Positions 382 to 24,600 of a DNA stretch of 27,431 nt are shown in pieces. Positions within the stretch are counted from its first letter, which is position 1. Each line of letters starts with the position of its first letter. Below the pieces are notes generated by a model that had not been told where the DNA came from, made no database searches, and saw nothing but the letters and a program-made list of their open reading frames with translations. Made by a program: the position numbers and the translations under genes. Source of the stretch: a virus; the IMG/VR virus record IMGVR_UViG_3300013115_000522, positions 1 through 27,431 of that record. One strand, written 5' to 3'.

Positions 382-385
382 TTGC

Positions 386-397: not shown

Positions 398-404
398 AAG
401 GAGG
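397..404 (+). promoter_or_regulatory. Strong ribosome binding site deciding a TTG start for gp25
   Basis: GAAGGAGG ends 8 nt before the TTG at 413. An ATG at 406 is only 1 nt from this site and is followed at once by TAA (409-411), so it cannot be the start of the gene. The TTG at 413 is the best-placed start in the open frame and gives the usual gp25 length. Confidence 0.7.
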
Positions 405-412
405 AATGTAAC

Positions 413-802
413 TTGCCGATAGCAAAGCGATGGTCAGACTTTGATTTGGATTTTGTTGCTCATCCAAACACAGGAAAACTAAGCATGAAGCAGGATGCCG
501 ATGCAGTTGTGCGGTCTGTTCGTCATTTGTTACTCACTAATCATTATGAACGACCCTTCCACCCAGAAATCGGTTCAAATCTATCTGCGCAATTATTTGA
601 ACCTATGACATATGCCACTTCACTTAGAATTAAAAGTGATATAATCGAAGCAATAAATAATTTTGAACCGAGAGTTAGTCTGACGAATATTGAGGTTACG
701 CCAAATGAAGCTGAAAATGCATATTATGTTTCTTTGCGATTTTTTATTATCGACGAAGAGGTAGAGCGCCAAACAACATTTTTGCTAGAGAGAACAAGAT
801 AA
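413..802 (+). CDS. 25: Baseplate wedge subunit gp25
   Basis: The product has 129 residues, against 132 in T4 gp25. Recognisable stretches are RPFHPEIGSNLSAQLFEPMT (T4: RPFDPEFGCDLSDQLFENMT), the NFEPRV block containing the conserved Glu-Pro-Arg motif, and the C-terminal LRFFIIDE strand (T4: IRFSVID). In T4 and in related contractile machines (TssE of type VI secretion) gp25 sits in the wedge core with gp6 and gp53 and helps nucleate the sheath, in the inner baseplate. The start is TTG at 413, chosen from the ribosome site at 397-404. The stop TAA at 800-802 abuts the ATG of gp6 with no spacer, so the two are probably translationally coupled. A late promoter-like motif lies just upstream. Confidence 0.93.
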   Translation: MPIAKRWSDFDLDFVAHPNTGKLSMKQDADAVVRSVRHLLLTNHYERPFHPEIGSNLSAQLFEPMTYATSLRIKSDIIEAINNFEPRVSLTNIEVTPNEAENAYYVSLRFFIIDEEVERQTTFLLERTR

Positions 803-2695: not shown

Positions 2696-2713
2696 GAGGA
2701 AACTGAATACATT

Positions 2714-5700: not shown

Positions 5701-7099
5701 GAATTCTATTGCATTGGAATTCGGCGATGCCACAAATTTCAAGCCAACTACATCTGGGCTCCAAGCCAAGTCATTTTCTGGTGGAGATTTTGAAGACGGT
5801 CGCGGAACCCTTGCTTCCAATTCCAACTCAAGACCCGTTACCAACACATGGACCGTCATGGCAGTGGTCAGGACAAACCTTGCTCTCAACGCTATTTCAT
5901 ATGATTCTACTTTAACCCAAACTATTATAAATTCTGGGTACGCGGGTGCGAACAATAATCTTAATGATTTTGCTCCAGCAGAAGGAACCTTAAATCTTGG
6001 GTATGAGATCATTGGGGAAACAGGAGCCTTGCAGGCAAGTGTGGTTAATGCTACTGCTGGTCTTCATTCAATGAACACTGCCGCGATAACAGATTTTGGA
6101 GGAAGCCTATCTTCATCAAATACAGAGTCCGCTTTCCGAATCGTTGGAGTTTCTGTCAATGCTTCCAGCCTCAGTGGAGCTTCTGATGATCTTCTGAATT
6201 TCCATATAGATGGAAGGCGGTTTGCTAATTCTGAAATTAATAATTTTGGTGTTTCTGGATTTACAGGGATGGACGGGTATACGCAGAATGTATATGTCAC
6301 GTCAATTGGAAAGTGGAAGCCTTCAAATAATGTCAGCAATCCTCAGTTGTCTGTGACCAATACATATTTGTATGGTTCGGGAGATTGGGATGGAGATATT
6401 GCAGAGATCTTGGTGTTCAACGAGAAGCTATCGAATACAAATATTTCTAAGGTAGAAGGATATCTTGCCCACAAGTATGGACTACAGGATAATTTGATTC
6501 ACAAGGATGGTATAGAGAATCATGCAAATGCATATCATTGGAGCTTTGCAAATACTCACGATGGCTGGAGCTTTATTGACAACCAACCCAACCAAAACCC
6601 ACCAAGTACAGTAGGTTTTGAATGGTATGATAATGATACAAGAAGTGTAATTCATGTCGAGGCTCAGGCTGCTGACTCCAATACTGCAATGGAAATCTTT
6701 TTGCCTCGTTATATTGATGGGACATACTATAATACATTTAGTATAAAATATGCTTGCTATTTTGGGCTTGCAATAGGCGCACCAGCCACTCAGCAATATT
6801 TTAATTTAGCATGGAAGAATACGGAAAGCGAAACGATATATGAAACACAACAACTTACACCTGTATCCAATCATCTTTCTCTTTTTGTGACGCCCTCTAT
6901 TGATCTTTCGTCAAATGAAAATTGGGCTGGTAAAAAGATTAAATATTTAAGATTTAATTTTTTACATAATAATTTGGGGGGTGGTCAGGAACACAAGGTC
7001 GAATATATAGACATTTCAGGAAGAAACTTTACTCATCCATACAAGTATGACGAACCACCTGCTCTTGGAGCAAACACAATGGACAACACAAGCTATTAA
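2714..7099 (+). CDS. 7: Baseplate wedge gp7 homologue with large lectin-like C-terminal extension
   Basis: The product has 1461 residues. Residues about 20-140 match the C-terminal third of T4 gp7: a helical block around HPKFVNFIEKYYEFM, then RRQYAYAFPQDLYSE, then MLFRLLYNEDIEIYSP (T4: KFLFKVLYNEEVEIEIE). The long N-terminal beta-propeller-like part of T4 gp7 is absent. After a short linker come beta-sandwich modules with carbohydrate-binding features: one at about 290-570; a LamG/concanavalin-type domain opening at 668 (LAAWWRAD), resuming at 936 (ISWFDQ) and closing at 1248 (EGYLAHKYGL); a second CBM-like module at about 690-930 nested inside it (ends DGWMLEE...PSPYIE); and another at 1265-1461. 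The core should join the wedge with gp6 and gp8, while the modules probably display glycan-binding surfaces at the baseplate edge. AGAGGA at 2695-2700 is the likely ribosome site, though 13 nt from the ATG. Assignment of the core is firm; the ligands are inferred. Confidence 0.85.
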   Translation: MGNVVRTSNGHQTSLQVRQNIPEFVVQDHPKFVNFIEKYYEFMANNSLMATTSNSSVYYYGADTAAKILQDIRDVDKTDFDNFVEMFRRQYAYAFPQDLYSEANKATLYKNLVNFYQAVGTEDSFKMLFRLLYNEDIEIYSPSKDILIASGGDYVKRARIRVNYVDGLNRIENKKIVGANSGAYGTVERVEVMPKGSDTFITGRVANTITNFSPNLLSFSNTIPNPLTSKYNEVTHPEKILENTKEVAHVYLSNYSGTFDIHEDVYYSEAGSANTSVCANTVILPVTKKLLLFDGFQGPETANAVVSVYDSRHAYRANSTNPPWGHANVILGHANTQESGNYIFYSNTGFWHTTGDGEGQIKLVTNSVFGSFGGKALQIGNNSVASGNGDYRQLVYSNRYGYGGENRVYRLTVRARDIGGNSAFSTVAGNRFSAGIVAYDTSERIIDNDQYTNPLTPDSSGSYEKAFWFASDNQSIDDEFYNYVAYFKGREKEAKKSGIPFSELNRGNGGRLNLPSGTRHYNSLQKALDGKVKLPHGTLWFTPTIKVNQPANGATFSQGITQIDYIALDEISSMQKQEGARPGAYREDSSLLSSSSRLYDGKYWQYNAYDIRSKQQVKDYKTVVRESAHPAGVAMFGTKITESSANGSYESVENNLTDTFTPDQLDSLAAWWRADAIGPQNIEYRRYDAATSNGTYGTERNRFPVGWSDFEDLDEDYDIKTFASVDVVAKGTDDSYFGGRALKIIDEHTSTGPNFDFPTTLGLGTSPFFGGGEMGNYPDEEFPIIIEPHKKWLLSFYSKVSNTTIDNGDFNSLLVYTAFANNAGADHSGIGLIGSQAVGNSYPTPSSSTVFKDFSAENVWERKSMVFDLSSSPHTRIGFRFQLPDRSAFSLATGNTTYHFDGWMLEEYDPALHGTEWGNHTPSPYIETGMNGSNVISWFDQSLNKHHVYANTHGGIFYAPQYIANVVGGKPAVRFSANTVKNAGNVYQYSSIGGTANSIALEFGDATNFKPTTSGLQAKSFSGGDFEDGRGTLASNSNSRPVTNTWTVMAVVRTNLALNAISYDSTLTQTIINSGYAGANNNLNDFAPAEGTLNLGYEIIGETGALQASVVNATAGLHSMNTAAITDFGGSLSSSNTESAFRIVGVSVNASSLSGASDDLLNFHIDGRRFANSEINNFGVSGFTGMDGYTQNVYVTSIGKWKPSNNVSNPQLSVTNTYLYGSGDWDGDIAEILVFNEKLSNTNISKVEGYLAHKYGLQDNLIHKDGIENHANAYHWSFANTHDGWSFIDNQPNQNPPSTVGFEWYDNDTRSVIHVEAQAADSNTAMEIFLPRYIDGTYYNTFSIKYACYFGLAIGAPATQQYFNLAWKNTESETIYETQQLTPVSNHLSLFVTPSIDLSSNENWAGKKIKYLRFNFLHNNLGGGQEHKVEYIDISGRNFTHPYKYDEPPALGANTMDNTSY
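4715..6484 (+). other. LamG/ConA-like lectin domain of gp7 interrupted by an inserted CBM-like domain
   Basis: The opening strand LAAWWRAD (residues 668-675) and the following ISWFDQSLNKHH (936-947), GGKPAVRFS, the TWTVMAVVRT strand and the closing IAEILVFNEKLS...EGYLAHKYGL are the standard landmarks of phage and bacterial LamG-type lectin domains. In ordinary members the first two landmarks are about 15 residues apart. Here 260 residues intervene, and they look like a complete second beta-sandwich (KKWLLSFYSKVS, WERKSMVFDLSS, YHFDGWMLEE, SPYIE), the CBM_4_9-like pattern seen in phage fibres. The domain names are motif-based and need profile or structure confirmation. Confidence 0.6.
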
Positions 7100-7142: not shown

Positions 7143-8834
7143 TTGTCGGCACTTACTGCGAAAAAATTTAGAGTTTATAGCGCAAACGCATTTCTTTCTT
7201 CTGTAATAACAGATTCGTTGTATGCCTATGTCGGGCGTTCTGTTACATGGAACGACGAAACCAATCCGCCTTCTGCAAATGATGACACGCGAGACTTTAA
7301 TAAAATTTGGGATAATATGGCAGGTGCCATTCGTGTCACAAGGAATCAGGTAGAACTTGGAATTAAGCGAAACGATTGGTCATCTGGGTCGATCTATGGT
7401 AAGTATCACCATGCAAACACAACGCTGGGTGATAATTATTATGTTCTTGCCGGTGTCGCAGACAGAGATGTTTATCTTTGCTTGGATAATAATGGAGATT
7501 CTCCGTCTACTTCAAAACCAAACCACAAAAACTTTTCACCAAAGAGAGAGGCTGATAGTTATCTTTGGAAGTATATGTATTCCATTCCATCCACTGAGTT
7601 TACCAAGTTTGCAACATCAAATGTGATTCCTGTCTATAATAATATAAACAACCAAAGAAGCAGCAGGCTTGGCGCAATTGAATCATTGACAATTAGCGCA
7701 AATGCCACAACTGGAATTGGGTCAAACTATCGCGGAAGTGGATTTTCAAACGGAACATCGGGTGTATCCATTAGCAATGGTACTATTTTTACGACAATTC
7801 CAGCCAACCACACGACCAATGAATTGAAGCTTGTTGCAGATGCTGGTCTTGCCGCCCATGATGATTATTATGTCAACAGTGTGTTTTTTGTAACATCGGG
7901 TAGAGCAAGGGGAACGTATAGGCGCATTGTAGATTCAAAGACGGGGCCTGATCATACGACAACAAATCTTGTGTTTTCTACTGCAATGTCTGGTGTCGCA
8001 AACGGAGATCAGTTTGTAATCGGTCCTGCTGTAGAAATACCCGGCGATCTTCAGGGGAGGAATACTTTTAGGGGTTATGCCGATGTTGATTCAGATGGCA
8101 AGGTGATAAGAATTAATGTGGTTCATTCTGGATTGAATTATGCGAACGGCGATGTTTCTGTATTGATTAATGGTGTTTATATATCAACTTCTGGCGTATT
8201 CAGCGACGGATCTGGGGCAGAGGCAGATATGATACTTGCTCCTTCATACAGTCACGGGTATGATATTCCATATGAGCTTGATGCCAAGTTTGTGATCATT
8301 TCCCCAGAAACAATTTTGCCCAGGGACGAACAGACAGGGCAATTTATCGGGTATAAAAATGAGATTCGTCAGTTTGGTTTAATTTCCAAACCAATAGATT
8401 CTTATACAAATCAGGTTGCGCGAAAAGATTCGTATGACCAAAGAACCACGGTTTATTTTGCACACCCAACAAGTATACCCTTCAAGCAAGATGAGGTGGT
8501 ATATGACACGGGATCGGGGATAGAGAAGGCAAAGGCCATTGTGTATGATGTTTGTGGAGACACGGGAAAACAATATCTTACGCTGACAAATGTTCAAGGA
8601 ATTTTTCAGAATGGAGACACATTGTATAACAGACTTGGAGATTCTGCGAGCATAAGTAGCGCAAATCTATCGTATCATCAATATCCAAGTGGAAGTGGAA
8701 ATTATCCAATGATGCCAGTACAAGCTGGTGGGTTGACTAAATATACAGGGAATATACTATATCACGAAAATATATCGCCCATTTATCGAAGACTAGATCA
8801 AAAAGAAAATTTTAAGATCGTCTTTGAGTTCTAA
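7143..8834 (+). CDS. 8: Baseplate wedge subunit gp8
   Basis: The product has 563 residues, against 334 in T4 gp8. The N-terminal pattern YAYVGRSVTWNDE...IWDNMAGAIRVT...IKRNDW matches T4 ITFGRSEPWSSNE...MWTHMMGTVKVL...IPRRDW. Next come VYLCLDNN and DSYLWKYMYSIPS (T4: VYRCLD, DGYVWEYLFEIPP). The end, LTKYTGNILYHENISPIYRR followed by NFKIVFEF, matches T4 LMRHSGEMIYMENRPPI followed by NILFTF. The extra length is in the middle (residues about 185-440), with Gly-rich beta segments such as HSGLNYANGDVSVLING and a SYSHGYDIPYELDAK block like the GHGxD-ELG motif I recall from marine gp8 proteins. gp8 dimers bind gp7 and hold outer baseplate parts. The start is TTG at 7143. The stop overlaps the next late motif. 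Confidence 0.92.
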   Translation: MSALTAKKFRVYSANAFLSSVITDSLYAYVGRSVTWNDETNPPSANDDTRDFNKIWDNMAGAIRVTRNQVELGIKRNDWSSGSIYGKYHHANTTLGDNYYVLAGVADRDVYLCLDNNGDSPSTSKPNHKNFSPKREADSYLWKYMYSIPSTEFTKFATSNVIPVYNNINNQRSSRLGAIESLTISANATTGIGSNYRGSGFSNGTSGVSISNGTIFTTIPANHTTNELKLVADAGLAAHDDYYVNSVFFVTSGRARGTYRRIVDSKTGPDHTTTNLVFSTAMSGVANGDQFVIGPAVEIPGDLQGRNTFRGYADVDSDGKVIRINVVHSGLNYANGDVSVLINGVYISTSGVFSDGSGAEADMILAPSYSHGYDIPYELDAKFVIISPETILPRDEQTGQFIGYKNEIRQFGLISKPIDSYTNQVARKDSYDQRTTVYFAHPTSIPFKQDEVVYDTGSGIEKAKAIVYDVCGDTGKQYLTLTNVQGIFQNGDTLYNRLGDSASISSANLSYHQYPSGSGNYPMMPVQAGGLTKYTGNILYHENISPIYRRLDQKENFKIVFEF

Positions 8835-8859: not shown

Positions 8860-11800
8860 ATGCCAATAAACTTTAACAAACAGCCATATTTTGATGATTT
8901 CTTAGCAGATGCGAATTATTATCGCATGTTGTTTAGGCCAGGGCGAGCAGTACAGGCAAGAGAATTAACCCAAATTCAATCTATGCTTCAAAACCAAATT
9001 AAAATGTTTGGTGATCATATATTTAAAAATGGTACTCTTTGTGCAGGTGGAAAAATTGAATATGATAGAAATAGTACAAAGTGGATAGCCGTCAAAGGGC
9101 AGGATGCTCATGGGAACCCGGTTCGTGTTCAAGATATTATTCCCGGTATGCGTCTTCGTCGCAGCGCAGAAGCAGATTCTCCATATACCAATGTAAAAGT
9201 TCTTGCGAAGGTCGTTGGCGTTCGCAAGCAAGAGCTTCAAGATCCTAATACGATTTATATTAAGTATGAGCGGGGTTCTGATGCTGGCTTTGGGGCAAAT
9301 GAGAACTTGGTTATATATGAAACCCAAAGCGGCAAAGCCAGATATACTGTAACCACCATAGATGAGCATACATCGGCAGGGGAACAACATCAGGGAAATT
9401 CTGCATGGTTTCGTGTAGAGCCGGGCATTTATTATTGGAACGGGTTTTTTATTAAAACTGCTGGTGGTGGTCTTTGTCTTGACAAGTATTCAAATACACC
9501 AACATATAAGGTTGGTCTTGTTGTATCAGAAGAAGTTATAACATCTGACGAAAATTCAAAAGACCCTGCATCTGGTTCTACTAATTATGGCGCACCCGGA
9601 GCAGATCGATACAAAATCACAGCCACACTCCAGAAGCATGGTGATGGTATAGTTCTTCCAGAAGGCATTCCTGATAATTTCATTCCATTGGCTACTATTG
9701 ATCGCGGGTTGCTTATTCGTAATGAAAGTATGCAGTCAGATCAGACTGTTTATAATATCATCGGCGATCATATTGCAAAACGGACATATGAGGAAAGTGG
9801 TAATTATGTTGTTAGACCATATGAGATTAAAATTGGGAATCATACGACCAAGGACAATCCAAAACTTGCCGTTCAACTCAGCGAAGGAAAGTCTTACGTT
9901 AAGGGATATAGGCAAGACCTACAGGGGTTTGTACAAACCAAGTTAGTTAATAAAGGGCGCGACACGGTTGATGTAGACAATATGGATTTTTCCAATAGAT
10001 ATGGTGATAATTTTGTCTACATCTATGATCGTGCATCCGGTGGTTCTGATAGGCACGCTGAAGATGCAAATGGTATTTTTGTTATCGGATCTGGTGGCGT
10101 AGAATTCAATCCAACAAGTTCTGCCTTTGGTGTTCGTGGCGAGGCAGTCTCTATTCATAGTGTTCCGAGCCAACTTGTTGTTGATTATGGAGTGACTTCT
10201 GGTGATACAGATGGTCATCGCTGGAAGTCTACCTTGGTCGGGACGGCAAGACCAATGCAGATGGTGTATGATAAAGAAGCAAGTCAAGCCTCTGCTGCAC
10301 AACAAAGACCCGGAAATGTATATCGCCTTTGGTTAGATGACTTTAAGCCTGCTTCATATTCAAATACAGTTTCTGTAGATAATATTAAGACCGGGCTTAC
10401 GGGAGCAATTTCCAATTCAACATATTCTGTATTTACATTTACACAAGACACTTCTCATGGAATAACTGCCAATGATCGAATTTCCATTACGGGTGGAAGT
10501 TCTACGTGGAATCATACTCAATACCAAGTTCATATGGCAAACAGCACTGCATTTGTAATTGCGAGCGATCATGAAGCTGCGGGAAATCCAACTGATCTTG
10601 TCGCATACCGCGTTACTGGAAACACGAGCCATCTGAGAACGGTTGTTCTCAATACAACAGAGTCTTCTCCTGCGTGGAACGATTCTTTGGTTGGCGCAAA
10701 AATTTCAACAAGCGGAACCCGAACGGATTCTGGCGGAAATCAAATTTGGGGAAACAATTCCGCAAGAACTATTGTGGGATATATAGGAACCCATCGCGAT
10801 GGCAGCGGCGCTCCAGGGCAGTATAGGGATAAGTATGGTTGGTCGAAAGATGCAACTGTTATAGTTGATCGGGATTGGGAGGTTCCTCCGCTACAGGGAG
10901 ACACGTATACCATCGCGTTTGATATGAAACAAGCTCGATCTATTGTACATAATGTGAACAAGTCTGCCACTGGTGCCGATCAATATCCTGCCGCAATTAA
11001 TCAGAAGTGGAATATTGATCCTATTAATGGTGTCCGATCAAGAACTTCAGAAGACTCTGAGAAGGTGTCTGATGCGGTGTTTGGTAATCGCGTCGGCGGC
11101 GATTGTAATTATAATGAGATTGCAGCCGGAGATAAACTTCTTTTTTCCACAGGCAATAATCCAAAGTTTGCTACTAAGTCAATAGTGAAGCACGGAAATA
11201 TTGATGCCGGTCAGACCTCTAATACAATTATGTACTATACAGAATATTGCATCAAGAGTGGAGACGGTAGTGCCTCTCTGATATTCACTCCTGCACAAGA
11301 AGAAAATTATAAGTTTTGGACAAGATCGGTTCCATATCCATACGAAGATGGTCCTGTAACTGCAACTGAAATCAAAGATAACTATATTGTTGTAGATGAG
11401 ACAACTGGAAATGTAATTACTGATTACATCACCTCTGGTGATCTTAATGGACATTCGTTAACATTAGATCGCGCATCCGGCGACAATTGGTTGAATGGTC
11501 ATAATTATGTTCTTTTATATCCTGCCAAGGCAGAGTTTGCAAACCCAGCATATAAGAAATTAACCAAGGCAAACACGACACATACACGACATATAAATCA
11601 GTTGTCGGTTGCGGGGGATCATACGAATTATGATCGTGGGCAAATTCAAATAGATAAGAATTCCTATGGGGTTTTGACTAACAATTCGAGAATTTCTCTT
11701 GGTATTCCTGATGTATATAAGAATCCTAATGCAACAAACTTTAAGGTTGTTCAGGAATTTAGAAGTGAGAACGCAAATACTGATTTGGCAAACACAACTC

Positions 11801-14800
11801 ATAAAGATGTCACCACGAGCTTTAGGTTGGACACAGGCCAACGGGACATGTTCTATGACAATGCGTCGCTTGTTTTAAAATCAGGGTCAAATTCGCCAAC
11901 AGGAAACCTCATGGTTTGTGTGGATCGTTTTCAGCGAATGACTGGACCCAAGAGTGATACCACAAGAACAGCCAATACAGATACCCCTGGATATTTTTCT
12001 ATAGATTCATATCAATACACAACAGATCTTACGTTTGATAGTCCTGCATCTATAAGTTTTTTGGTTCACGATTTAGTAAAGGGTGAAGATTCTGGCGCAT
12101 CTGGTTACATCGAAACTTTTTCAAATACGGGTCCGGGTTTTGCCAAGGCAAGACTTGTAGATGTGGAAGGAACTTTCCAAGTTGGAGAAAATGTAAAAAA
12201 GGGTGACGCTGTTGGTAGAATCAAGACAATCGTCGAAGCTGATTTGGCATACAGCGATATTCCAGTATATACCGATGCAGCTAAAATTCCACACCTTCTT
12301 CGTAATCATATTGATATGCGACCCTATGTTACATCTAATACAAGGGTTAGCGATACCATTGGTGGAATCATGCCCCTTATTCCAACCTCTGAATCGTTCA
12401 ATGCAGGAATCAAGTCGGGTGAGGCAGTTGTTGGTTCAAGTATGGCATCCAGAATTAGCGTCACAAATTATGCAGGAAGAAAAGCAAAGGTCACAATGTC
12501 CAAAGATGGCTCCGTTGGAATTATTAATGGAGCATACTCCTTGGATAAAACAAAATTAAGACCTCCCAAGGACGACGATAATGATGACGCGCTCACTCTG
12601 TTCACATTAGAGATTCCTCCATATACAGATAACCCAAGGGATGTTATTGTCCAGAGACATACGGCAATGCGATATACAATGCGTGATATTGGTCGTCTTG
12701 CCAAGAGGGTTGAGAATTTAGAATACTATGTTTCTCTGAACGCACTGGAACGGGCTACTGCTGATGTTGATGTTACATTTGAGGACGGCACAGATCGTTT
12801 CAAGAATGGTATCATTACAGACAACTTTACTGGAGATGCAATTCGTGATGTAAGAAGTTCTGATTTGTCCTCTGTGAGTAATAAGGGTGTTTTGCGACCA
12901 TTGTCAACATTCTCTGACAGAGGGCAGATGATGATGGATATTGATATGGCGTTGGATAATAATGGTGCCTATGTCCGTCGAAATTGGTTGGGCGGAAGAA
13001 ACACTGGGGAGAGTCGTAGAAGATTTGGAATGCTTGAATATACTCCAGTGGATTTTCAATCTCAGCCAATTGCAACGATGTCCATGAGTGTAAATCCATT
13101 TGATCTTCAGAATTATACTGGAACGCTTGACCTTTCTCCCGATTATGATCGATGGATCAGTACAACCAAGTCACCAGAATATGAAGTTAAAATTCACGGA
13201 ACTTCAGATTCCGAATTTAGTATGTTTACAACGATTGATGAAAATTCAAGTGCTGATCAAATTGTACAGGCACTACAAAGTTATGATTCTCTTTGGGAAG
13301 ATATTGCAGGAACTTTTGGAATGCGTGATGATGATATTCAAGGTGAGATTGTTTCTTTTGAACAATTAGAAGACGGGACATATAACAGAACAACATCTGC
13401 GCGATCAATCACTCTTGGTAGTGTTCAAGATCAAAGGATGAGCACGGCACAAATTGATGCTGCCATTGCGCAATCTGGTATTGTCGATGGAATGACCAAA
13501 AAGCTGGAGATTCTTCCATATATTAGATCAAGAGATATCTATCTCCACGCCAAGGGGCTCAGGCCAAATCATCTTGCAGTTACCAAGTTTGAGGATGTTG
13601 GTGTTGAATATGCTTTTAGTCGGGCAAATGAAATTTATATGAAATTTGATTCTACCAAACTGGCACTAAACACTACACAATTCCTCCCAGACCAAAACGG
13701 AGATTATGAAAAGGTTAAGATTTATAAAGAAGGTGATACTTCTAAGACTGCCAATGCCATACTGATGGCTATTCGAGACGTTGAAACTTCTGGTGCTCAT
13801 GATCAAATAGCAAGAAACAATGTTCGTAGAGGATTTATTGTTCCTGTAATTCATAATGAAGATACAGGTAAAGTTGATTATGCTACATATAAGGATGGTT
13901 ATTATAGTAGTTCTTGGACTAATTCAAATATTAAAACTCGTGGCTGGCAGGGCACCGATACCAATCTAATTGTTGAGGGGTATGAATCTGGTGCCAAGGC
14001 ATATCTCTGGGGCGGCGGAACACATAATTACAATGGTCATTATACGGGAACTGCGAGAAATACTGGAGCAAACACAACACACTTGCTTCTGTCTCCAGAT
14101 GCTTCTCGTTATATTTCAAAGAATTTTGGAACCACTGGTCCCGATAACCCGACAAGTTATACAGGAATTCCAAGAGAGACTTTGATTCGGTTTGTTGATG
14201 GCGCAGGTAAATATCAAGAATGTATTGCTAATACTGCCTTGGCTACAGAAGAGAATGGCTCTATTGTTTTGGAATTGAGAAAAAATTCACGAGGCGACAC
14301 TGGTGTCAGAACCAATTGGGTTCATGGGGCAATCAATCAAGACGGACCTGACTCCAATCCTACGGTATACTCAATAAGAATGGAGCCTGTTGAGCCTTCA
14401 ATCAGAAATCATAATATTACGCAGCGTGGAACACAACATTCGCGAAGCACATTCCATGGAGAGAAGATGGGCATTCTTCATCTTCCAAGTGATATTCGCC
14501 ACGAGTGGACATATGGAAGGAAGTCTGTTGAGGTAATGGATCGTTATGATCGAACCGAAAATTTGATTACAAGTTATGCACAGGCATATTATTTTGCAGA
14601 AGGCACCGGACAACAAACCGCAGATAGTTCTAAGGTTCTGGGTGTTCTTCAAGAGGTTAGAAGCAAACTCAATGCCTATAGAATAAATAATCACGCAGAG
14701 GATCTTGGTTATGTTCCGGGCATTGATAATTTCTCAGAAAATCCACGCGAAGGTAAACTTGCTGTAATTAAAAGCATTACAGTAAACGAGGGTGCCGGTG

Positions 14801-15120
14801 CCAATGGTCAATATACTGGATCTGAAACTTTCCGACCTGGAAGATCAACATACGGTAGAGTTGCCGAAACTACAGTTAATGAATTGGGAAATCAATACTT
14901 TATGAAGAGCGGCGCATACTTTACTGCGGGGGCAATTACTGACGCCTTCATAGAAGAAGATTCTCAATTGGTTGGTTGGATGTGGGTTCCGAAGATAAAT
15001 GGCGGCGGAGAAATTGTTGGGTGGGAAAAGCAAACTGCTAGCATCGATGACCTGAGAGAACAGCCAAACAGACACACGAACTCGCCGACAACTGCAACTA
15101 ATCCCGAAGGAGATGTGTAA
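8860..15120 (+). CDS. DUF4815-type giant virion structural protein, N-terminal and central parts
   Basis: The product has 2086 residues. The N-terminus (PYFDDFLADANYYRMLFRPG, then RAVQARELTQIQSMLQNQI and FGDHIFKNG) is the hallmark of DUF4815 proteins, large structural proteins of T4-like and other myoviruses. Residues 1271-1296 carry the conserved RYTMRDIGRLAKRVENLEYY block, 1412 onward NPFDLQNYTGTLDLSPD, and 1551-1572 ILPYIRSRDIYLHAKGLRPN, all landmarks I recall from this family. Long beta-rich, low-complexity stretches lie between. The family normally continues into a DPLAQTF-type domain in the same chain; here that domain is in the next gene. The location is probably the baseplate periphery or fibre base; the exact role is not established. 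The ribosome site is GAGG at 8845-8848, followed by ATG at 8860. The protein stops 2 nt before the next gene. Confidence 0.85.
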   Translation: MPINFNKQPYFDDFLADANYYRMLFRPGRAVQARELTQIQSMLQNQIKMFGDHIFKNGTLCAGGKIEYDRNSTKWIAVKGQDAHGNPVRVQDIIPGMRLRRSAEADSPYTNVKVLAKVVGVRKQELQDPNTIYIKYERGSDAGFGANENLVIYETQSGKARYTVTTIDEHTSAGEQHQGNSAWFRVEPGIYYWNGFFIKTAGGGLCLDKYSNTPTYKVGLVVSEEVITSDENSKDPASGSTNYGAPGADRYKITATLQKHGDGIVLPEGIPDNFIPLATIDRGLLIRNESMQSDQTVYNIIGDHIAKRTYEESGNYVVRPYEIKIGNHTTKDNPKLAVQLSEGKSYVKGYRQDLQGFVQTKLVNKGRDTVDVDNMDFSNRYGDNFVYIYDRASGGSDRHAEDANGIFVIGSGGVEFNPTSSAFGVRGEAVSIHSVPSQLVVDYGVTSGDTDGHRWKSTLVGTARPMQMVYDKEASQASAAQQRPGNVYRLWLDDFKPASYSNTVSVDNIKTGLTGAISNSTYSVFTFTQDTSHGITANDRISITGGSSTWNHTQYQVHMANSTAFVIASDHEAAGNPTDLVAYRVTGNTSHLRTVVLNTTESSPAWNDSLVGAKISTSGTRTDSGGNQIWGNNSARTIVGYIGTHRDGSGAPGQYRDKYGWSKDATVIVDRDWEVPPLQGDTYTIAFDMKQARSIVHNVNKSATGADQYPAAINQKWNIDPINGVRSRTSEDSEKVSDAVFGNRVGGDCNYNEIAAGDKLLFSTGNNPKFATKSIVKHGNIDAGQTSNTIMYYTEYCIKSGDGSASLIFTPAQEENYKFWTRSVPYPYEDGPVTATEIKDNYIVVDETTGNVITDYITSGDLNGHSLTLDRASGDNWLNGHNYVLLYPAKAEFANPAYKKLTKANTTHTRHINQLSVAGDHTNYDRGQIQIDKNSYGVLTNNSRISLGIPDVYKNPNATNFKVVQEFRSENANTDLANTTHKDVTTSFRLDTGQRDMFYDNASLVLKSGSNSPTGNLMVCVDRFQRMTGPKSDTTRTANTDTPGYFSIDSYQYTTDLTFDSPASISFLVHDLVKGEDSGASGYIETFSNTGPGFAKARLVDVEGTFQVGENVKKGDAVGRIKTIVEADLAYSDIPVYTDAAKIPHLLRNHIDMRPYVTSNTRVSDTIGGIMPLIPTSESFNAGIKSGEAVVGSSMASRISVTNYAGRKAKVTMSKDGSVGIINGAYSLDKTKLRPPKDDDNDDALTLFTLEIPPYTDNPRDVIVQRHTAMRYTMRDIGRLAKRVENLEYYVSLNALERATADVDVTFEDGTDRFKNGIITDNFTGDAIRDVRSSDLSSVSNKGVLRPLSTFSDRGQMMMDIDMALDNNGAYVRRNWLGGRNTGESRRRFGMLEYTPVDFQSQPIATMSMSVNPFDLQNYTGTLDLSPDYDRWISTTKSPEYEVKIHGTSDSEFSMFTTIDENSSADQIVQALQSYDSLWEDIAGTFGMRDDDIQGEIVSFEQLEDGTYNRTTSARSITLGSVQDQRMSTAQIDAAIAQSGIVDGMTKKLEILPYIRSRDIYLHAKGLRPNHLAVTKFEDVGVEYAFSRANEIYMKFDSTKLALNTTQFLPDQNGDYEKVKIYKEGDTSKTANAILMAIRDVETSGAHDQIARNNVRRGFIVPVIHNEDTGKVDYATYKDGYYSSSWTNSNIKTRGWQGTDTNLIVEGYESGAKAYLWGGGTHNYNGHYTGTARNTGANTTHLLLSPDASRYISKNFGTTGPDNPTSYTGIPRETLIRFVDGAGKYQECIANTALATEENGSIVLELRKNSRGDTGVRTNWVHGAINQDGPDSNPTVYSIRMEPVEPSIRNHNITQRGTQHSRSTFHGEKMGILHLPSDIRHEWTYGRKSVEVMDRYDRTENLITSYAQAYYFAEGTGQQTADSSKVLGVLQEVRSKLNAYRINNHAEDLGYVPGIDNFSENPREGKLAVIKSITVNEGAGANGQYTGSETFRPGRSTYGRVAETTVNELGNQYFMKSGAYFTAGAITDAFIEEDSQLVGWMWVPKINGGGEIVGWEKQTASIDDLREQPNRHTNSPTTATNPEGDV
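15107..15112 (+). promoter_or_regulatory. Ribosome binding site inside the end of the DUF4815 gene
   Basis: AAGGAG lies within the last codons of the upstream gene, 10 nt before the ATG at 15123. This gives the downstream gene an independent initiation signal and argues against the two frames being joined by frameshifting. Confidence 0.65.
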
Positions 15121-15122
15121 GA

Positions 15123-18100
15123 ATGTCTATTTATGAAGACAACATTAGTATTAATCATATGGACTGCCTTGCTGCTTTAGGGTGGCTTGCCTTTGATACT
15201 ACACATATGGGAGATCCAGATAGTTATTTGATGTCGCCTTGCTGTACACACGGTTACCGCGCAGTGTTCGGTCCAAGACCCGCACTGGATTATGTTAGAG
15301 CGTATACGGATCTCTATTCGCGGGTCAACCCGGGCACGGGCGAGACAGAATATCGAGGGCATTGGGCGGTGGACAGCTCAAGGGCTAACTTCGCGGGCGG
15401 CCCCGGTTGGACGTTGGTTGCATCAGCAGAAGACCTCGCGGTCTGGGATTGGAGCGACGACGAAGGAGTAGATCGACCCGACTGGTTCGTGCGGGCGCAG
15501 GGTGCCGGAAAAGATTCCAGTTGGGTGTTGGTTGCAGGAGCAACAGACATTGCGATCGGGGCACCTGTAGAAGCCCAGGCAAAATATTGGGCAACCACAC
15601 AAAGTGATATTGCGACAATTGAGCAAGAATATGACGCTGAAGATTGGGCGGGTCGTGATATTACAGAGGCAGATTTTCAAACTTCTGTTTCGGAATATAC
15701 AAAACAATATGGGCACGCCATTCATGACTGGAACCATTATTGGTGGTGGTTTGGAATCTTTTTTTATCCCCGATACTCTGCCACAACGACAACCACCGCT
15801 TCACAGGTTCCGTATGACATTACTTCTGACTATCAAGAGACGACAGCATACTATAAGTATTGGGGCTGGCGAGGAAATCGGTGGCGTTGGTATAGAAGTT
15901 ATTATGGTGGTCAGTATGCTTCTTTAACACAAACAACTACTGCCACTGGCGCGCTTCAGGGATGGTCAAAATCAGAACATAGTCAAAATGCGCCTGGTGT
16001 AATTAGTCAGACATCTACACTTCCTAGTGCTGCTCAGTTGGGCGATACAGACAAAATACATTGGGTTCGTTATGGGTCAAGAAATCTAATTGGCTTAAAG
16101 CGGTGCAAGGACGGTTATGGAGCAACCGGACCACTATACGGGCATAATCATGGTATATATGGGCAAACACCAAACTGGAGGGGTTTATCACGAGAAGATT
16201 ATAGTATAAACGATATTGTGCAACCCGGTCAGTCTGGTGTTGGTGGGCTTGTCCCAAACATTATTTTTACGGGCGGCGAACTGGAGGGTGTTCAGGGATT
16301 TGCCGAGTGTGAAGAAGACCCAACCTCTCCCGATTTTGGTTCAATTAAAAGTATTAACATTGGTCAGGGTGGATTGAATTCTCAGTTGGCAGGAACCGAT
16401 CCCGGCATTACTATTCTTACTGATATGCGAAAGATAGGATCTTTGCCTTTTGATCTTTCTTTAACTCCCTCGGAAGTTAGTCTCATTGAAGCTCCTGCTG
16501 TTTTAGTAGACTCTCCAGAAAACTATGCACATTTTGGTAACGAAGGTTCTGTTGATATAGAAATTACTACAGACCCAGAAGAGATTAAAACTGCTTATCC
16601 TTGGATGTTTAAGACGAAGGAAGAGATGCACGCACTTCTTTGTGACGGGTATCATGATCCAGTTGCTCAGACATTCATGGTCAATCAAACATTACATCCA
16701 GATGGAATCTTCTTAACGTCAGTTCAAGTTTGTTTCCAAAATAAACCTGACCCCGATTCAAGAGAATGGGTGGTTCTTGAAATTAGACCAACCAACAATG
16801 GTTATCCAGATCATGAAAAAGTTTTAGCTCAAAAGTGGTTGACTAACCATCAAATAAATGTTGCAGACAATGCAGAAGCAAATATAGATAAAAATTGGGA
16901 TTGGCCTACCGGAACAGGAGAAAGAAGGTATCCTACATTTGATGATCCAACAGGAAAATCCTATACGGAATTTATTTTTAGGCAACCATGTTACTTAGAG
17001 CCTGCAAAAGAATATGCCGTTGTAATTCGTTCAAACAGTTCTGATTATAGGGTTTGGCTTGCAGAGTCAAGTCAGCCTGTGGCACCAAGATCCGATGATC
17101 AGTCCAGATTGGAGCAATCCGAAGCTGCCAGAAGAAGTGCCGTCTATGGCAATGAATTTGGTGGTTCTTTCTTTGTTTCACACAACGGAAGAACTTGGGA
17201 GCCAGAACAAAATAAAGACTTGATGTTTAAGTTGCTCAAGGCTGATTTTGGTTCTGGCACGGCGATATCACCGGCAACTCCATTTACAGGAACCATTGAT
17301 GTTCGTGCCAGTGGTGGTTTACCGAATGCGGTTGATTATGATCGTATTAATATTTCAGTTCAAAAGGCACTAATTCCAAAGGTTGGAGTAACTCAAATCA
17401 CAGGAACAGCATATGGACTAACAAAAACAGATGCCGAGGGAGGAGCCACGGAACCCACCACTGTTATAGATGGTGCCTATGGTGACAACCTTGCCGGTGA
17501 AGTCAACACCCACGATTTAAATGAGACTATGAGATTGCTTGCTAGCAAACCATATGAGCAATCTTCCTTTAAGTCTACATTTACATTGTCTACAACAAAT
17601 CGCGACGTTTCTCCTGTGCTTGATATGGATCATGCCAGTATATTCCCGGCAAAGAATGAAATCAATAATGGTGAGCTTACTGTTAATGATATTAATATTC
17701 TTTCTGGCGGCAGTGGTTATCAGATAGGTACTCGGTTTACTGTCTCTGCGCCACCAGATAAAAATGGTGTGGGGGGAAGTACAGCAAATGCATACTTTAA
17801 GGTTTCTAACCTGGGAGATAATGATAGAATTCAGGCAGATCTTTCAACCAGAGGCATTGTTATGTGTGATTCGGGTGGAACCGAAACAACCACTTCGGGC
17901 GCAGGATTCTATAAGGAAATTGTGGATCAGGCTTCGCACATTTCAACGGTTACTGGTAGTGGGAGTGGGTCTGGGGCGTCCTTTGAAATTCTTTCAGAAG
18001 AGGGTGCCTCTGAGGGTAATGCCAAGATGCGTTATGTTACCAAACCAGTCACGCTCGCAGACGGAATGTCCGCAAGGGCACTCAAGGTTTTCCTTACTGC

Positions 18101-18398
18101 CAAACAGCCCTCTGGAAGCGAGATTCATGTTTATTATAAGGCACTTTCTGAATTTGATTCAGATGACATTGAACAGAAGTCTTGGAAGAGAATGTATCAA
18201 AAATCTCCAGACAGAAAGGTTACGTCTACTGCCAACCGAGAATATGAGTTTACTTCGGATGAGTTAATTTCATATACTACTATTGCAGGAGAATCTTTTA
18301 ATACATTCAAGACCTTTGCTGTCAAGATTGTTGGATTTGCTTCAAATGAAGCACAGCCGCCCATTGTTAAAAACTTCAGGGCAATCTCTGTATTTTAA
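15123..18398 (+). CDS. Virion structural protein carrying the C-terminal half of a DUF4815-type protein
   Basis: The product has 1091 residues. Residues about 440-780 hold the domain that normally ends DUF4815-type proteins: DPVAQTFMV (512-520), FLTSVQVCF, VVLEIRPTNNGYP, TEFIFRQPCYLEPAKEYAVV, DYRVWLAES and a TWEPEQNKDLMFKLLKADF block. The C-terminus adds NRDVSPVLDMD, a Gly-rich SGGSGYQIGT segment, LADGMSARALKVFLTAKQP and FNTFKTFAVKIVGF, again like recalled marine-phage homologues. The first 400 residues have no family I recognise: they contain a GC-rich coding patch, an internal duplication and a Trp/Tyr-rich block (about 200-265). It starts 2 nt after the upstream stop in another frame. The two products probably assemble together; this is inferred from domain content. 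Confidence 0.78.
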   Translation: MSIYEDNISINHMDCLAALGWLAFDTTHMGDPDSYLMSPCCTHGYRAVFGPRPALDYVRAYTDLYSRVNPGTGETEYRGHWAVDSSRANFAGGPGWTLVASAEDLAVWDWSDDEGVDRPDWFVRAQGAGKDSSWVLVAGATDIAIGAPVEAQAKYWATTQSDIATIEQEYDAEDWAGRDITEADFQTSVSEYTKQYGHAIHDWNHYWWWFGIFFYPRYSATTTTTASQVPYDITSDYQETTAYYKYWGWRGNRWRWYRSYYGGQYASLTQTTTATGALQGWSKSEHSQNAPGVISQTSTLPSAAQLGDTDKIHWVRYGSRNLIGLKRCKDGYGATGPLYGHNHGIYGQTPNWRGLSREDYSINDIVQPGQSGVGGLVPNIIFTGGELEGVQGFAECEEDPTSPDFGSIKSINIGQGGLNSQLAGTDPGITILTDMRKIGSLPFDLSLTPSEVSLIEAPAVLVDSPENYAHFGNEGSVDIEITTDPEEIKTAYPWMFKTKEEMHALLCDGYHDPVAQTFMVNQTLHPDGIFLTSVQVCFQNKPDPDSREWVVLEIRPTNNGYPDHEKVLAQKWLTNHQINVADNAEANIDKNWDWPTGTGERRYPTFDDPTGKSYTEFIFRQPCYLEPAKEYAVVIRSNSSDYRVWLAESSQPVAPRSDDQSRLEQSEAARRSAVYGNEFGGSFFVSHNGRTWEPEQNKDLMFKLLKADFGSGTAISPATPFTGTIDVRASGGLPNAVDYDRINISVQKALIPKVGVTQITGTAYGLTKTDAEGGATEPTTVIDGAYGDNLAGEVNTHDLNETMRLLASKPYEQSSFKSTFTLSTTNRDVSPVLDMDHASIFPAKNEINNGELTVNDINILSGGSGYQIGTRFTVSAPPDKNGVGGSTANAYFKVSNLGDNDRIQADLSTRGIVMCDSGGTETTTSGAGFYKEIVDQASHISTVTGSGSGSGASFEILSEEGASEGNAKMRYVTKPVTLADGMSARALKVFLTAKQPSGSEIHVYYKALSEFDSDDIEQKSWKRMYQKSPDRKVTSTANREYEFTSDELISYTTIAGESFNTFKTFAVKIVGFASNEAQPPIVKNFRAISVF
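15301..15540 (+). other. GC-rich coding island in the N-terminal region
   Basis: Hand counting gives 147 G or C in 240 bases (61 percent). The flanking 60-base lines at 15181 and 15601 are each 26/60 (43 percent). The reading frame is uninterrupted. Such a sharp local rise inside one gene suggests a segment of different origin, or selection on an unusual amino-acid content (Gly, Ala, Arg, Trp, Asp). Confidence 0.6.
15405..15560 (+). repeat. Short internal duplication (W-x-LVA-x-A-x-D motif, two copies)
   Basis: GWTLVASAEDLAVW (from 15405) and SWVLVAGATDIAIG (from 15519) are clearly related. The DNA also shares the run GTTGGTTGCA with nearby matches. The copies are 114 nt apart, in frame, inside the GC-rich island. 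Confidence 0.55.
15726..15918 (+). other. Trp/Tyr-rich block with repeated aromatic-then-Thr pattern
   Basis: Two successive aromatic clusters occur, DWNHYWWWFGIFFYP and YYKYWGWRGNRWRWYRSYYG. Each is followed by a Thr-rich run (SATTTTTASQ; SLTQTTTATG, which extends to about 15945). The pattern aromatic cluster - Tyr/Ala/Ser - Thr run is thus present twice. No membrane segment is plausible because Arg, Asn and Gly interrupt the second cluster. It may be an adhesive or lectin-like surface patch; the function is unknown. Confidence 0.55.
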
Positions 18399-18404
18399 AT
18401 TAAA

Positions 18405-18641
18405 ATGCCTGATGACGATTTGGTAAAGACGGACGATCCGAATTATATGAAGAATCCTGAAAATGGATCATTGGTATCTACTGATGTTCGTGCATTTAAG
18501 AAATTTAAATTACAACAAGAACAACAAGAGAAAATAAAAATTAAAGAAAACGACCTAAATAATATTAAGTCTGAAGTGTCCGGCCTTAAGAACGAGCTTG
18601 GCGAGATAAAGGACATTTTGAAACAGCTTTTGAATAAATAG
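18405..18641 (+). CDS. Small coiled-coil phage protein
   Basis: The product has 78 residues. The N-terminal part (DDPNYMKNPENGSLVSTDVR) resembles the short DLVRDPxSGAxxNTN-type leader that I recall from conserved small proteins of marine T4-like phages. Residues about 35-78 form a charged heptad pattern (NNIKSEVSGLKNELGEIKDI) ending LLNK, which predicts a coiled coil. No signal peptide or membrane segment is seen. It lies 6 nt after the previous gene and 13 nt before the giant fibre gene, so it could be a virion component, linker or assembly helper for the fibre. No clear ribosome site precedes its ATG, so translation may depend on the upstream gene. The function is not recognised. Confidence 0.7.
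   Translation: MPDDDLVKTDDPNYMKNPENGSLVSTDVRAFKKFKLQQEQQEKIKIKENDLNNIKSEVSGLKNELGEIKDILKQLLNK
18633..18641 (+). promoter_or_regulatory. Late promoter-like motif overlapping the small gene's stop codon
   Basis: AATAAATAG contains the TAG stop of the coiled-coil gene (18639-18641) and lies 13 nt before the fibre ATG. It shares AAATAG with the other three junction motifs. A weak AGGA at 18640-18643 is the only ribosome-site candidate, so the spacing between promoter and start would be very short. This is the least certain of the four. Confidence 0.35.
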
Positions 18642-18654: not shown

Positions 18655-21600
18655 ATGCCCAAGTTTGAATCTTCCATAAAAGTCAGCACACTCGAAAGCC
18701 TTACCGGCAATACTCCTTTAGTTCATCTTGGAGCAGATAATCGTGTTGGTGTTGGTACAGACAAACCCGAAACCAAATTGCATGTTAATGGTGCAATTAC
18801 GGCTTCGGGTTTAATTATATCAGCAGGCGCTCTTGCAACACAAGGGGATGCTGCCGAAGTCCTTGGCTTTACTCCCAATATGGATGAATGGTATGTAAAT
18901 ACCGATGGAAAAAATGTTGTCAATGGCTGGACTCAAACGTCGGGTAGTGGATCTGCCACAGAGTCGTCTGATAGACAACTAGGTCTTGCCAGCGCAGAAT
19001 TTGATAATGCCGAGGTTATTTGGGAACGGGAAGTTGTTTTTGATTCTCCATTATATGCAAACGTATTCCTCCAAGGAACCATATCCTATAAGTTTGACTC
19101 TTGGAGTTCTGGCACTCCCGGCATTGCAATCACTGTTACCCACCGAGAAAAAGCAAATTCGGATTATGATAGCATTACAGACGACGTAATTAATTGGAAA
19201 TCTTCAATCTCCAATACGTTTATTACACCCGTTTCTGTTGACTCAAGATTGCCCACCGGATTGGGTAAGTGGACATCTGGTGCATTCCGGGCACACACTC
19301 CAGGCAATCGAGAAATTACAAAACTTAAATTTGAGATTATCTCTTCTTCGGATGAATATTATGATACTGCGATTAATGATGGCGGCTCTGGTAATGCAAC
19401 CTCTCTGGGCAACGGGACAGCCTATAATTGGAATCTTGATGGTTTTAATTTTAGTTTCATGCATCCCGATATGCGGGTTGATCAGCTTGGAAGAATAAGC
19501 GGGGCATTTATTGAAGCAGCGACAATTGACGATCTTCATATCAAGAATATGATTTCATCAACATCTTCTTTGATTGATGATCGCCCAACGGGGCAAGACC
19601 CTGAATTGGATACATTAATTCCAGAAGGGCATGAGCAATATCCTGATGGCGGGAAAGCAACCGGATTGGCTGTCCAGGGTCTTGTTGCAAATGATGTTTA
19701 TGCCTCTGGTTGGAGTATTAGTAAAACTGGAACAATCAAGGCAACAGATATTGAGATTTATGGTAGCAAGGGAAATGTTCTTATTTCCGGTGATGGTGAA
19801 ATCGACGGAAGAGAAAATCCATTTGCCCGTTGGGCAGATAGATCTCTTGAGGCTCTTGATCCAGACGCGAGCGCATATCTCTATGGGCTTGATTTTACAG
19901 AAATAAATCGAACAGACCTTTTTGCAAACAATCGGATGCTTTTGACAGACGGATTAAGTTCAGATGAAATTGTTGCAAATCAACACTCCACATTTATCGC
20001 AAACAACACACCATCTGGTTCTGCGTCTCTGGGTTCTGATTATTCTAATGGTTCGATCTTCTTTAATGGTATTACAACTAATGCTCCTCCTGGCTCCATT
20101 GTCATTGGGGAGAACAAACCGTTCATGCACAATAGAAAGGGATATATTCTCTTTCTTGCCAACACACAAAAATGGGATAGTAACGAGGGAGTATATCAAA
20201 AATATCACGCCAACACATATTTGGGAGAGTATGGTCTTTATGTTTTTGGTCAACAAACAGTTGGCGGCTGGATATATCATCCACACGGAAATAATTCATT
20301 ATATTCTATTTCCGAGACAGTTCCTACTGACGATCGTCTTCAGCAAAATGATTTTCTTGTTATTGGTTCAATGGGAATTGATGGGAGTGGAGAAATTGAC
20401 AGTGCTTCTACGAGAATTGAGGCACCGCGTCATCCCGACACCATCACAAATACAGAAAGATCAACGGCACCTCCAATTGGAATCATTGCCGGTGGAATTC
20501 TTTTTGCTGACATTCATGTCAACCAATGGAATCATTCTGCCAACGTAGGCGAACTTCAATTTACAAATAAAACAAACAACCCAAATACATCATTCACCTT
20601 TATTCACCCCGGAACTGTTGCCGACGGCGACAGTGTTGTATATAGATGTAACGGTGCGTATGGTGTCCTTACGAGCCTTGAGGACTTCCCTGGCTCAAGA
20701 TATATTACATTTGTTGGCGCAGATAGAACAGAAAACCAAAAAGCAACTGCTTCACCAGACTCTCGGTTTATTTTACAAACAGGACATTCTCCCGATTTTG
20801 TTGCGGCTTTCCCAATTGGCAATCGATGGTTTTATAATCAAGATGAGGGTAATTACTCTGAGTTTACTCCAACAGAACGGGACTGTATTGTTGCGCGAGT
20901 AGATTCAGATGGAGTTTCATATGCCGGGGGTGATGGTTCCAGCAAAATTACAAACATATATCGGTATGCAGAACGCGCAGCACGAACGCCAGACGGTTCC
21001 TTTATTGATGATATGATCGTCAACCCGCCACAAGGAATGGCACATGGCGGCGCAGTTTTTGCAGATTTCCGAAAGAATGAAGAGTGGGTGAGCGGCGACA
21101 CATATCAAGCCAACAGTGGCATCATTGCCATGACAAATTCGGAAAACACCCCAAGAAACACATTCTTTGTAATTCACCCAGAAAACACATATACGTGGGA
21201 AGTAGATCAGGTTGGCAAGGGTGTCGTAACAAACAATGCGACCATAGGGACTCGTCATATCGCATTCGTTGGTGGTGATAACAGATCTGCTCCGGGCTAT
21301 GTTAATCGTTTTCCAATGGCATCCGGGTTTGAAGATGTTGCCAATGATTTTATTGCCGTTCTCAAATACGATGACAGCGGAAACACGGCACCAATCGTGG
21401 ATGGAGTCCAGTCGTGGTGGTATGATAACGGTCAAAACACGTCAACATACTTCACGCCTCTCGCAAACGACTTTGTTGTTGCAACCGCAGTTTCACACGA
21501 TGATACCTCAAATGGAATAGAACAACTATACATTTGGTCTTCAAGAGAAGCAAGGATGTCCGACGGAACAACCTTGACAAGCATCAAAAATGCTTTGGAT

Positions 21601-24600
21601 CTTGCAATTGATTCCGCAAACAACGCAGCCAACCTTGCCATGGAACGTGCCGTGGAGGCATTGGATCTTGCCGGAAACGCATTGTCTAATGCCTATGCCT
21701 CTCTCGGGCTTTTGGATGGAGAGATTGCACTATACTTTCAAGAAGAAGGAGACACTGTTGAGGGTGGTAGTGGAAAATTTTTAGAGGGGGTATCCCATGT
21801 TGATTTTGATTATGGTGATATTTGGATCAATACAATTCAACATAATAGAAACATCGATGGTTCCTGGGACACCAATGCGATTTTCCGATACGCAAATACA
21901 GAACATGGTTGGCATGACACGCTTTCGTGGTGGCGCAACGCAAATAGTGCATTGGGTAGGGCAGCACTAAAAACTCTGGAGAATAGAGATTTTTCAGATC
22001 GTGCCACTGTCATTCATTATGCAGATCGTTCGGCAGAGTATCATCCTTTCTATGGTCCCAATGTTGCAGTTATTTCTTCGGGTTCTGATAAGCCAGCAAC
22101 GATTCCAAATCTTAATCCAGAAGGCGATCTTTGGTATGACACCCGACCTTCTCCGGGGCAGACGGGTCCATCTAATCATGCATATGTTTATAGAACAAAC
22201 ACTTCATTTAGTAATACTACACATTATAAAACTTCGGGTGAAGATGGATATGTATCTGACACCCATAAGGGATACATTGCAACAGGTAAGGGTGCCTGGT
22301 CCCAGACGACTCATAACTCTGCAACAAGCGGTCCATGGAATCCTGCTACTGCGCAGACAGGTTGGTGGAGTCTTCAAGATCCGGCAGCCGGTGATATTCA
22401 GTCGTTGGTGGATGCTGAAGCGGCGACAAGAGAGGCGGAAGACAATATACTTAATGCCTTGGTTGGGGATGCACAAGCCGCTGCTGATCGTGAGATTTTG
22501 GCATGGTTCCAACCAGAAACGGAAATTCCAGATGCGTCAGGTAATGGTGATGTCTGGATTCATACCGATAATTTAATTAAAACCGACGGAACCCTGAACA
22601 CAGGGGCAATCTTTGTTGCCAATACAAAGAGCGGAAGCTATGATGATTTGAATAATCATTACTGGTGGCCGGCACCGAATAATGCCATCGGCTTGATGTA
22701 TGCCGAGGCATATTCTTCTGGTATTGCCGGGGAATTTGAGCGTGGCACAAATTATGTTCCACGCGCATTATCTACCTGGGACTCTCCTGATTCTGATTAT
22801 ACATTTGATCATACGTCGAGCCTTCTGCCATCTAAAACGCCATATTATATCACGGGGTTTAATTCTACATCCTTTGCTCAAAAAGCCACTTCAAATGCTT
22901 GGCACGGATCGCACAGTTTGCTCTTGAGTGTCAACGAACCCTCTCTACCGGGGCGTCGTGCCTTTATGTTTGCCAACACAGATTTTACTTCTGGGTCTAA
23001 TCCGGCATTAGAAAATCCCGACCAAGATACATTTGATGTATACGCAATTCAAATTCCAAAAGGAAAGCGGTGGGTTTATTCATTATATGCGACATCGAAT
23101 CATGGAGGAACAGTTTTCCCGATTGACTCGGATGGCTGGGAAGAAAACAGACTTTGTGCTATTACATCTAATGGGAGTCCGATTTCAACCACAATGCTTG
23201 TTGGGGACAATTTTACGGTTTCCAACACAAGCTGGACGAGACTACATGCTGTTTTCGATTTTACGACAGGCGACAATTCTCAAGCAAATAGTATTATCCT
23301 TGGAGTCCAGGGTAGAAAATCATGGACTGGTATTTCTGATCCGCATTACATGTGGGTTGATGGTGTTCAGTTAGAAGAAGTCCCCGATAATGTATATAAT
23401 CCCTCTCAGTACAAAGAACCTTCTGATGGAAAGGCAATTGTCTTCGGTCGTGAAATTACAGATGGAAAGATTGTAACTTACTTCGGACCAAATTATGGAG
23501 ATGGCAATCCTTGGTACGGACCCATTCCAAACACCACGCCATCAGGTCTTCCTAACCCAGAACCACACGGAGACTTCTGGGTCAACACGTCAAATAATAA
23601 TATTATATTCAGATACCATCAAAGCGGCACTGACGTTTCTTCGCAGACAGTATACTGGACCTCAGAAGTTAATGGGTCTGGTTGGTATTCGACAGAAGAC
23701 CTCCGAACAGGGAATGCATTAACAACTTCCTATTATGCAATTGCCAACGCAGCCTCGGCGCGGGCAGCAGCGGATCGTGAAATTGTTGCATACTTCCAAA
23801 CCACTGCACCCGGTCTTTCTGGTAATGGTGATATTTGGATTGACACTGATAGTTTTGCGACATTAAATTCAAGTTCAATATATGTTAATCGTCAACAAGA
23901 TGGGGCGGATTGGGAAAATTCACCAGACAGCGCAATTGGTCGTGCATACTTGCGGGGTTGGTTGGCGGGTGAGCAAGCCGAGCGCGGAGAGGCACTCGCG
24001 ATTGCTGCTTCCGGCGGCAAGGCATTTGAGTTCCCGATTGCTCCTACGGTCAATGGTATTATTGGTGTTGGTGCCACGGGTAATGTTGTATTCTATAAAA
24101 ATAGTACGAGCGAATATCAGGTAGATCAGCCAGACGCCCGTGGAGAGATTTATGTTACCAATCGTGGTGGTATTGATTTTGTAGGGCCGAATGGTTCTAT
24201 TTGGTATCCTCAAGCCGCAACTTATCCTGCATCAAATTATGGAATGCCCGAGGCGGGTATAATTCTTACTCCATATGGACATAATACAGTTCCAAATGGT
24301 GGAGAGGTGGTTGCCAACGGTTATTTGATGTACACCAACATGAATGCTGCCGCAAGATTCTCTACAACAGCCGAAAATGCGTTTGGTACTCACAGACATA
24401 TCATTCCTGTTTTGTGGAACGAGGATGAAAATACATGGCACGCAGTTGATAATAATAACAATAAGTATCCATTTGTGCCCAATGCAGCAAACGGCGACTT
24501 TATTGTTGCCAAGATCACTCGCCCAACAACAGTTCCTGAGGGTCTTGCAACTCTTCAAGATTGGGTCTTTGATGTTCTACCCACACAGATTAAATCATTC

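Follow-up and report, generated by a model that had tools for sequence, protein, structure and literature searches.

VrlC is named as an integral component of a two-layered baseplate, and a VrlC-type protein is one of the five shared by the pelagimyophages and cyanomyophages that have been compared (PMC7029224). In A511-type phages, the family member gives a double-layered baseplate and forms the pyramids of the second layer, and carbohydrate-binding folds are predicted in the C-terminal part of the proteins from Deep-Blue, Vp4 and A511 (PMC11406892). A511 Gp106, Vp4 Gp120 and Deep-Blue Gp176 (tail fiber/VrlC) are named as the same family, and the likeness drawn here is one of description (PMC11406892); the Vp4 and Deep-Blue proteins are single chains of about 1170 aa from phages of Gram-positive hosts, whereas the protein considered here is made of two chains. 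Staphylococcus phage 812 ORF65 (PDB 9euf, 9eui, 9euj), also a DUF4815 protein, is a single chain of 1152 aa. In the pelagiphage and cyanophage VrlC proteins of HTVC008M, Mosig, P-SSM7 and S-SM2, a DUF4815 core, a conserved motif (motif M) and a C-terminal half with the motif DPxAQTF are joined in one polypeptide, encoded between gp8 and a small gene. Each of the annotated reference phages that were examined has VrlC as a single gene of about 1700-2600 aa (HTVC008M, Melnitz, Mosig, P-SSM7, Moby, RHph_Y68, BUCT-ZZ01, ORM_20, S-SZBM1, S-SM2, S-SCSM1, S-WAM1, SynMITS9220M01, DSL-LC03 and OLIVR6). To our knowledge, the modular architecture of VrlC-type proteins has been little described, and a literature search found no paper on fission of the VrlC gene. 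The family itself is already known; what is new is a split VrlC protein with a clade-specific N-terminal domain.

The window, i.e. the whole 27,431-nt stretch of viral DNA analysed, is a T4-like baseplate gene cluster. Genes for gp25 (413-802), gp6 (803-2695), a wedge-like ORF (2714-7099) and gp8 (7143-8834) are followed by ORF1 (8860..15120, + strand, 2086 aa), ORF2 (15123..18398, + strand, 1091 aa), an unlisted small coiled-coil-like gene (18405..18641, + strand, 78 aa) and a long fibre-like ORF (18655-27429) that runs off the window end. A similar small gene stands after VrlC in relatives, and the 78-aa gene is possibly the counterpart of the putative chaperone Gp107 of A511. Within the fibre-like ORF, several segments are near-repeats of one another, e.g. 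'ADREILVFFDPSESDPPTST' and 'GPRPNTTPSGLDNPTPHGDFWINTSNN'. Two larger contigs with close relatives of ORF1 and ORF2 also have a major capsid gene of T4 type. When positions 251-5750 are aligned with IMGVR_UViG_3300007510_000060 (L012/L060), identity is ~100% up to window position ~5250, falls below 65% within ~500 bases and mostly stays low. This drop points either to the distal baseplate module having been exchanged as a whole very recently or to a chimera formed in assembly.

Together, ORF1 and ORF2 make up a baseplate protein of the VrlC/A511 Gp106 type in two halves, cut between motif M and DPxAQTF. ORF1, the N-terminal half, matches Pfam PF16075 (DUF4815; E 2.7e-46, 158.5 bits with the cut-off at 30) and the initial part of phrog_358 (E 1.9e-183), and the gp8 gene directly precedes it, as it does VrlC in relatives. 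ORF2 gave no Pfam match when searched alone; its residues 509 onward match phrog_358 from position 1419 onward (E 8.7e-71), so that recognisable VrlC sequence begins near residue 510. Motif M, 'RSRDIYLHAKGLRPNH' (13519..13608, + strand, from ORF1 residue 1554), is the landmark between the DUF4815 core and the C-terminal half; it is present in fused relatives and, depending on the split family, lies in ORF1, ORF2 or a middle ORF. Beyond it, the tail of ORF1 (residues 1641-2086; 13780..15117, + strand) is an extra region that hhalign and hmmsearch align weakly to the fused protein of L052 and to the second-ORF start of the L054/58/62/65 family. The C-terminal half proper (16656..18395, + strand) starts at the motif DPVAQTF at residue 512 and is composed of beta-rich domains. 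Its relation to phage 812 ORF65 is seen at two levels: residues 619-1140 of that protein (PDB 9euf) match the profile of second ORFs (E 1.1e-41), and PDB 9euf is the top Foldseek match of the C-half model (E 1.3e-14). With this low-to-moderate model, phage 812 ORF65 is the best match, and a carbohydrate-binding fold, a CBM22 pair, comes only at E 4e-3. ORF1 and ORF2 occupy the VrlC position between gp8 and the small coiled-coil-like gene, and a standard VrlC member is a single polypeptide. Because the window has two ORFs with separate starts, it is filed as a split variant and not as a standard VrlC member.

The fission of the DUF4815 protein proposed in the first-pass annotation is borne out by the presence of two genes in the window and of one in all annotated reference phages examined. 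A single gene broken by a frameshift, through an assembly or sequencing artefact, could give a similar picture, since the frame changes between ORF1 and ORF2 and only 2 nt separate the ORF1 stop from the ORF2 start. This explanation was rejected and is regarded as very improbable. A Shine-Dalgarno sequence, AAGGAG (15107..15112, + strand), lies within the 3' end of ORF1, 10 nt upstream of the ORF2 ATG; upstream of ORF2, its frame stays open only to 15102, leaving no long open overlap with ORF1; and three other types are divided at the equivalent place, with gaps of 29-37 nt between the two ORFs and purine-rich sites before the ORF2 start. These types are represented by six further contigs with the same two-gene layout, recovered in alignment-based scans of viral contigs (ORF1 of 2024, 2017 and 2008 aa; ORF2 of 995, 1053 and 986 aa). 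Single-sequence peptide-pattern scans of viral contigs retrieved nothing for ORF1 or ORF2, and a scan of genome contigs gave no prophage relatives. The split is a real, clade-wide gene fission, common to the window and the three other types, which form a clade of marine T4-like phages.

Between the start of ORF2 and its VrlC part lies a segment of about 480 residues (ORF2-N) without recognisable family. No match was obtained in PHROGs (residues 1-438 or 1-302 as queries), in Pfam (residues 1-438) or in phage records (tblastn at E up to 10). Profile searches of the PDB gave just a chance-level match, and the match to phage P-TIM68 (E 4) is also at chance level. A weak match near residues 374-430 links the L020 homologue to a repeat of T4-like baseplate wedge proteins (phrog_708, E 7e-4). 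The segment had been delimited as 15123-16030 at first reading; its unmatched character holds, and the end coordinate 16030 proves too short, since the unmatched region runs to about residue 480. As had been noted, it lies right at the split; none of the fused relatives examined carries it. It was untraceable in the VrlC proteins of HTVC008M, Mosig, P-SSM7 and S-SM2 that were compared, and a profile search found no equivalent of ORF2 residues 1-480 in phage 812 ORF65. Six-frame hmmsearch of the other collected loci found it absent save for one weak repeat match. A relation of ORF2-N to the middle of fused proteins or of those from other split families was also considered and rejected, hhalign probabilities against the linkers of fused genes and the second-gene starts of other split families being <=3.5% and hmmsearch retrieving the clade only plus the weak repeat. 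Its carriers are four sequence types only, in all of which it is kept, the relatives being 36-42% identical to the window, close to the value for the rest of the protein. Because it is retained in the four split types and absent from the fused relatives and other split families checked, ORF2-N qualifies, by sequence comparison within the collections searched, as a new clade-specific domain.

The domain is unevenly conserved. Its head (residues 1-60; 15123..15302, + strand), with invariant H12, D14, C15, H28, C40, C41 and H43, shows 57-82% identity among the four types; whichever pair is compared, no other region of ORF1 or ORF2 reaches the value of the head. Identity falls to 16-40% over residues 171-290 and reaches 35-62% over the rest of the domain (residues 291-480; 15993..16562, + strand). 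Tryptophan makes up 3.7-4.3% of ORF2-N in each of the four types and about 1% of the remaining ORF2. The poorly conserved part includes the Trp/Tyr block already remarked upon in the first-pass annotation, a hypervariable stretch (residues 206-265; 15738..15917, + strand) in which W and Y occupy 19 of 60 positions; no other stretch of 60 residues in the window has more than 11, and the maximum in 200 shuffles of the window proteome is 15. AlphaFold gave a pLDDT of 27 for ORF2-N (five sequences) and, in the full-length model, values <50 for residues 1-512.

A patch of 61 percent GC at 15301-15540 and a local duplication had also been reported for this segment, and both are found. Windows of 240 nt over 15243-15602 reach 59.6-60.8% GC, against a mean of 41.8% for coding windows (sd 3.5, maximum 53.3), and no other coding part of the window is as GC-rich. 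Codon usage agrees, GC3 in 15243-15602 being 0.61 against 0.35 +/- 0.05 predicted from the amino acids. The patch covers only about a quarter of the unmatched segment and falls mainly in a length-variable slot (residues 62-106; 15306..15440, + strand). From residue 62 to the motif W.W.D, this slot measures 19, 35, 45 or 61 residues in the four types. GC3 in the window slot is 0.67 against 0.33 expected (z 5.1); the slot was picked after the patch had been seen, and the L023 insert, with 0.54 against 0.27 (z 5.4), is an independent second case. The long versions of the window and L023 have no evident similarity to each other, and the short slots of L022 and L027 are compositionally normal (z about -1). 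In the window, a mild shift persists over the 34 codons after the slot (z 2.4), as a weaker trend to residue 140. Because the long slots are GC3-shifted and the short ones normal, the patch is best read as a lineage-specific insert in the variable slot of an older domain. The insert, as distinct from the ~480-residue domain, looks like a later addition, made after the domain existed and probably by recombination. Two broader rules were discarded: a clade-wide GC3 bump seemed likely on raw windows, and after amino-acid correction only the window and L023 keep it; a GC3 peak at the linker as a general property of VrlC genes holds for 3 of 21 fused genes, where 3.4 are expected. The duplication consists of two imperfect 45-nt copies (76% identical). 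Copy 1 (15403..15447, + strand), encoding GWTLVASAEDLAVW, lies mostly within the variable slot, and most of it has no counterpart in relatives; copy 2 (15517..15561, + strand) encodes SWVLVAGATDIAIG, and its core SWVL.AGA is kept in all four types.

Fission of VrlC genes is not restricted to this clade. In a quick tree built from the N-terminal and DUF4815 regions of 43 loci, 15 loci are split, and at least five changes of state are needed (four of them forced by well-supported branches), splitting and re-fusion being indistinguishable. All split examples come from metagenomic contigs. By this tree, the VrlC gene is taken to have undergone at least four or five fissions in the sample, at different sites. 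The other split genes (L054/58/62/65/49; L047; L056/71; L057/80; L077) comprise two or three ORFs and are broken between the DUF4815 core and the C-terminal half, before motif M, after it, or both; ORF2-N was found in none of these families. The L054/58/62/65 family is broken before motif M, and L056 and L071 have three pieces, with motif M in a middle ORF of 488-489 aa. At L077, the break falls directly before DPxAQTF, and only four residues of the second gene precede the C-half motif, an extra segment being absent. Such a segment is therefore not needed for fission. The three ORFs of L071 (9989-17439) and L056 (1029-8503) measure ~1221-1233, 488-489 and 757 aa, and the middle ORF of L071 also has an aromatic stretch. 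Duplicated arrangements are seen as well: L055 (6020-19202) has two consecutive DUF4815/VrlC-type genes (2475 and 1914 aa), and L010 (ACG-2014h) has one such gene on each side of gp8, the first annotated as VrlC and the second as baseplate wedge initiator, yet matching the VrlC profile.

The overall explanation preferred here, to which roughly even chances are given, combines fission, a new domain with a docking head, exposed variable loops and a later insert. A cut chain requires that the outer half be held by non-covalent contacts, and the conserved head of ORF2 is a natural candidate for this role. Residues 1-60 would dock ORF2 onto ORF1 or the baseplate and so replace the lost covalent link; the slot (62-106) and the aromatic block (~206-265) would form exposed loops selected at the phage-host interface, and the GC3-shifted insert would have joined the slot once the domain existed. 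Docking is our best guess from the conservation pattern; a metal, a chaperone or a different wedge protein would be equally plausible partners of the head. A different emphasis, tentative and somewhat doubtful, makes ORF2-N primarily an added receptor-binding (adhesin) domain before the C-terminal half, the split having only freed its N-terminus, with no docking. The tryptophan enrichment in all four types, the two hypervariable blocks and the predicted sugar-binding folds of VrlC relatives (PMC11406892) would suit an adhesin; however, conservation peaks at the extreme N-terminus, an uncommon pattern in a host-facing tip, and PDB profile and Pfam searches reveal no similarity to any known binding module.

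The first-pass annotation had suggested that insertion of a foreign segment caused or followed the fission. A foreign-looking, GC3-shifted insert does exist, and its position in a segment that sits at the split and is missing from every fused homologue examined would fit an insertion between the halves that broke the gene and supplied a new start. As a cause of the fission, such an event is nevertheless judged unlikely. The compositional shift is lineage-specific and limited to the slot and its weak downstream trend, while the remaining domain is about as conserved as its neighbours and is common to four divergent split types at ordinary identity. L022 and L027 share the same split and fill the slot with short, normal sequence. 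Split relatives lacking the segment, which the annotation had taken as contrary to its proposal, occur elsewhere in the family (e.g. L077); a fused gene already carrying the segment was not found among the relatives checked.

Collectively, these comparisons bear on how VrlC-type proteins are built. Repeated fission in one inter-domain zone marks sites where the chain tolerates cutting without loss of function, and the fission points give domain boundaries for structural work on VrlC. The clade-restricted front domain, with its conserved head and lineage-specific inserts, is a candidate for a module that serves docking or host contact in uncultured marine phages. It is tempting, though speculative, to view the middle of VrlC as a recurrent fission zone, where the freed cell-surface half, on its own chain with a clade-specific docking domain and hypervariable insertion slots, may diversify. 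If this is true, phages could alter the adhesive portion of their second baseplate layer and keep the structural portion intact.
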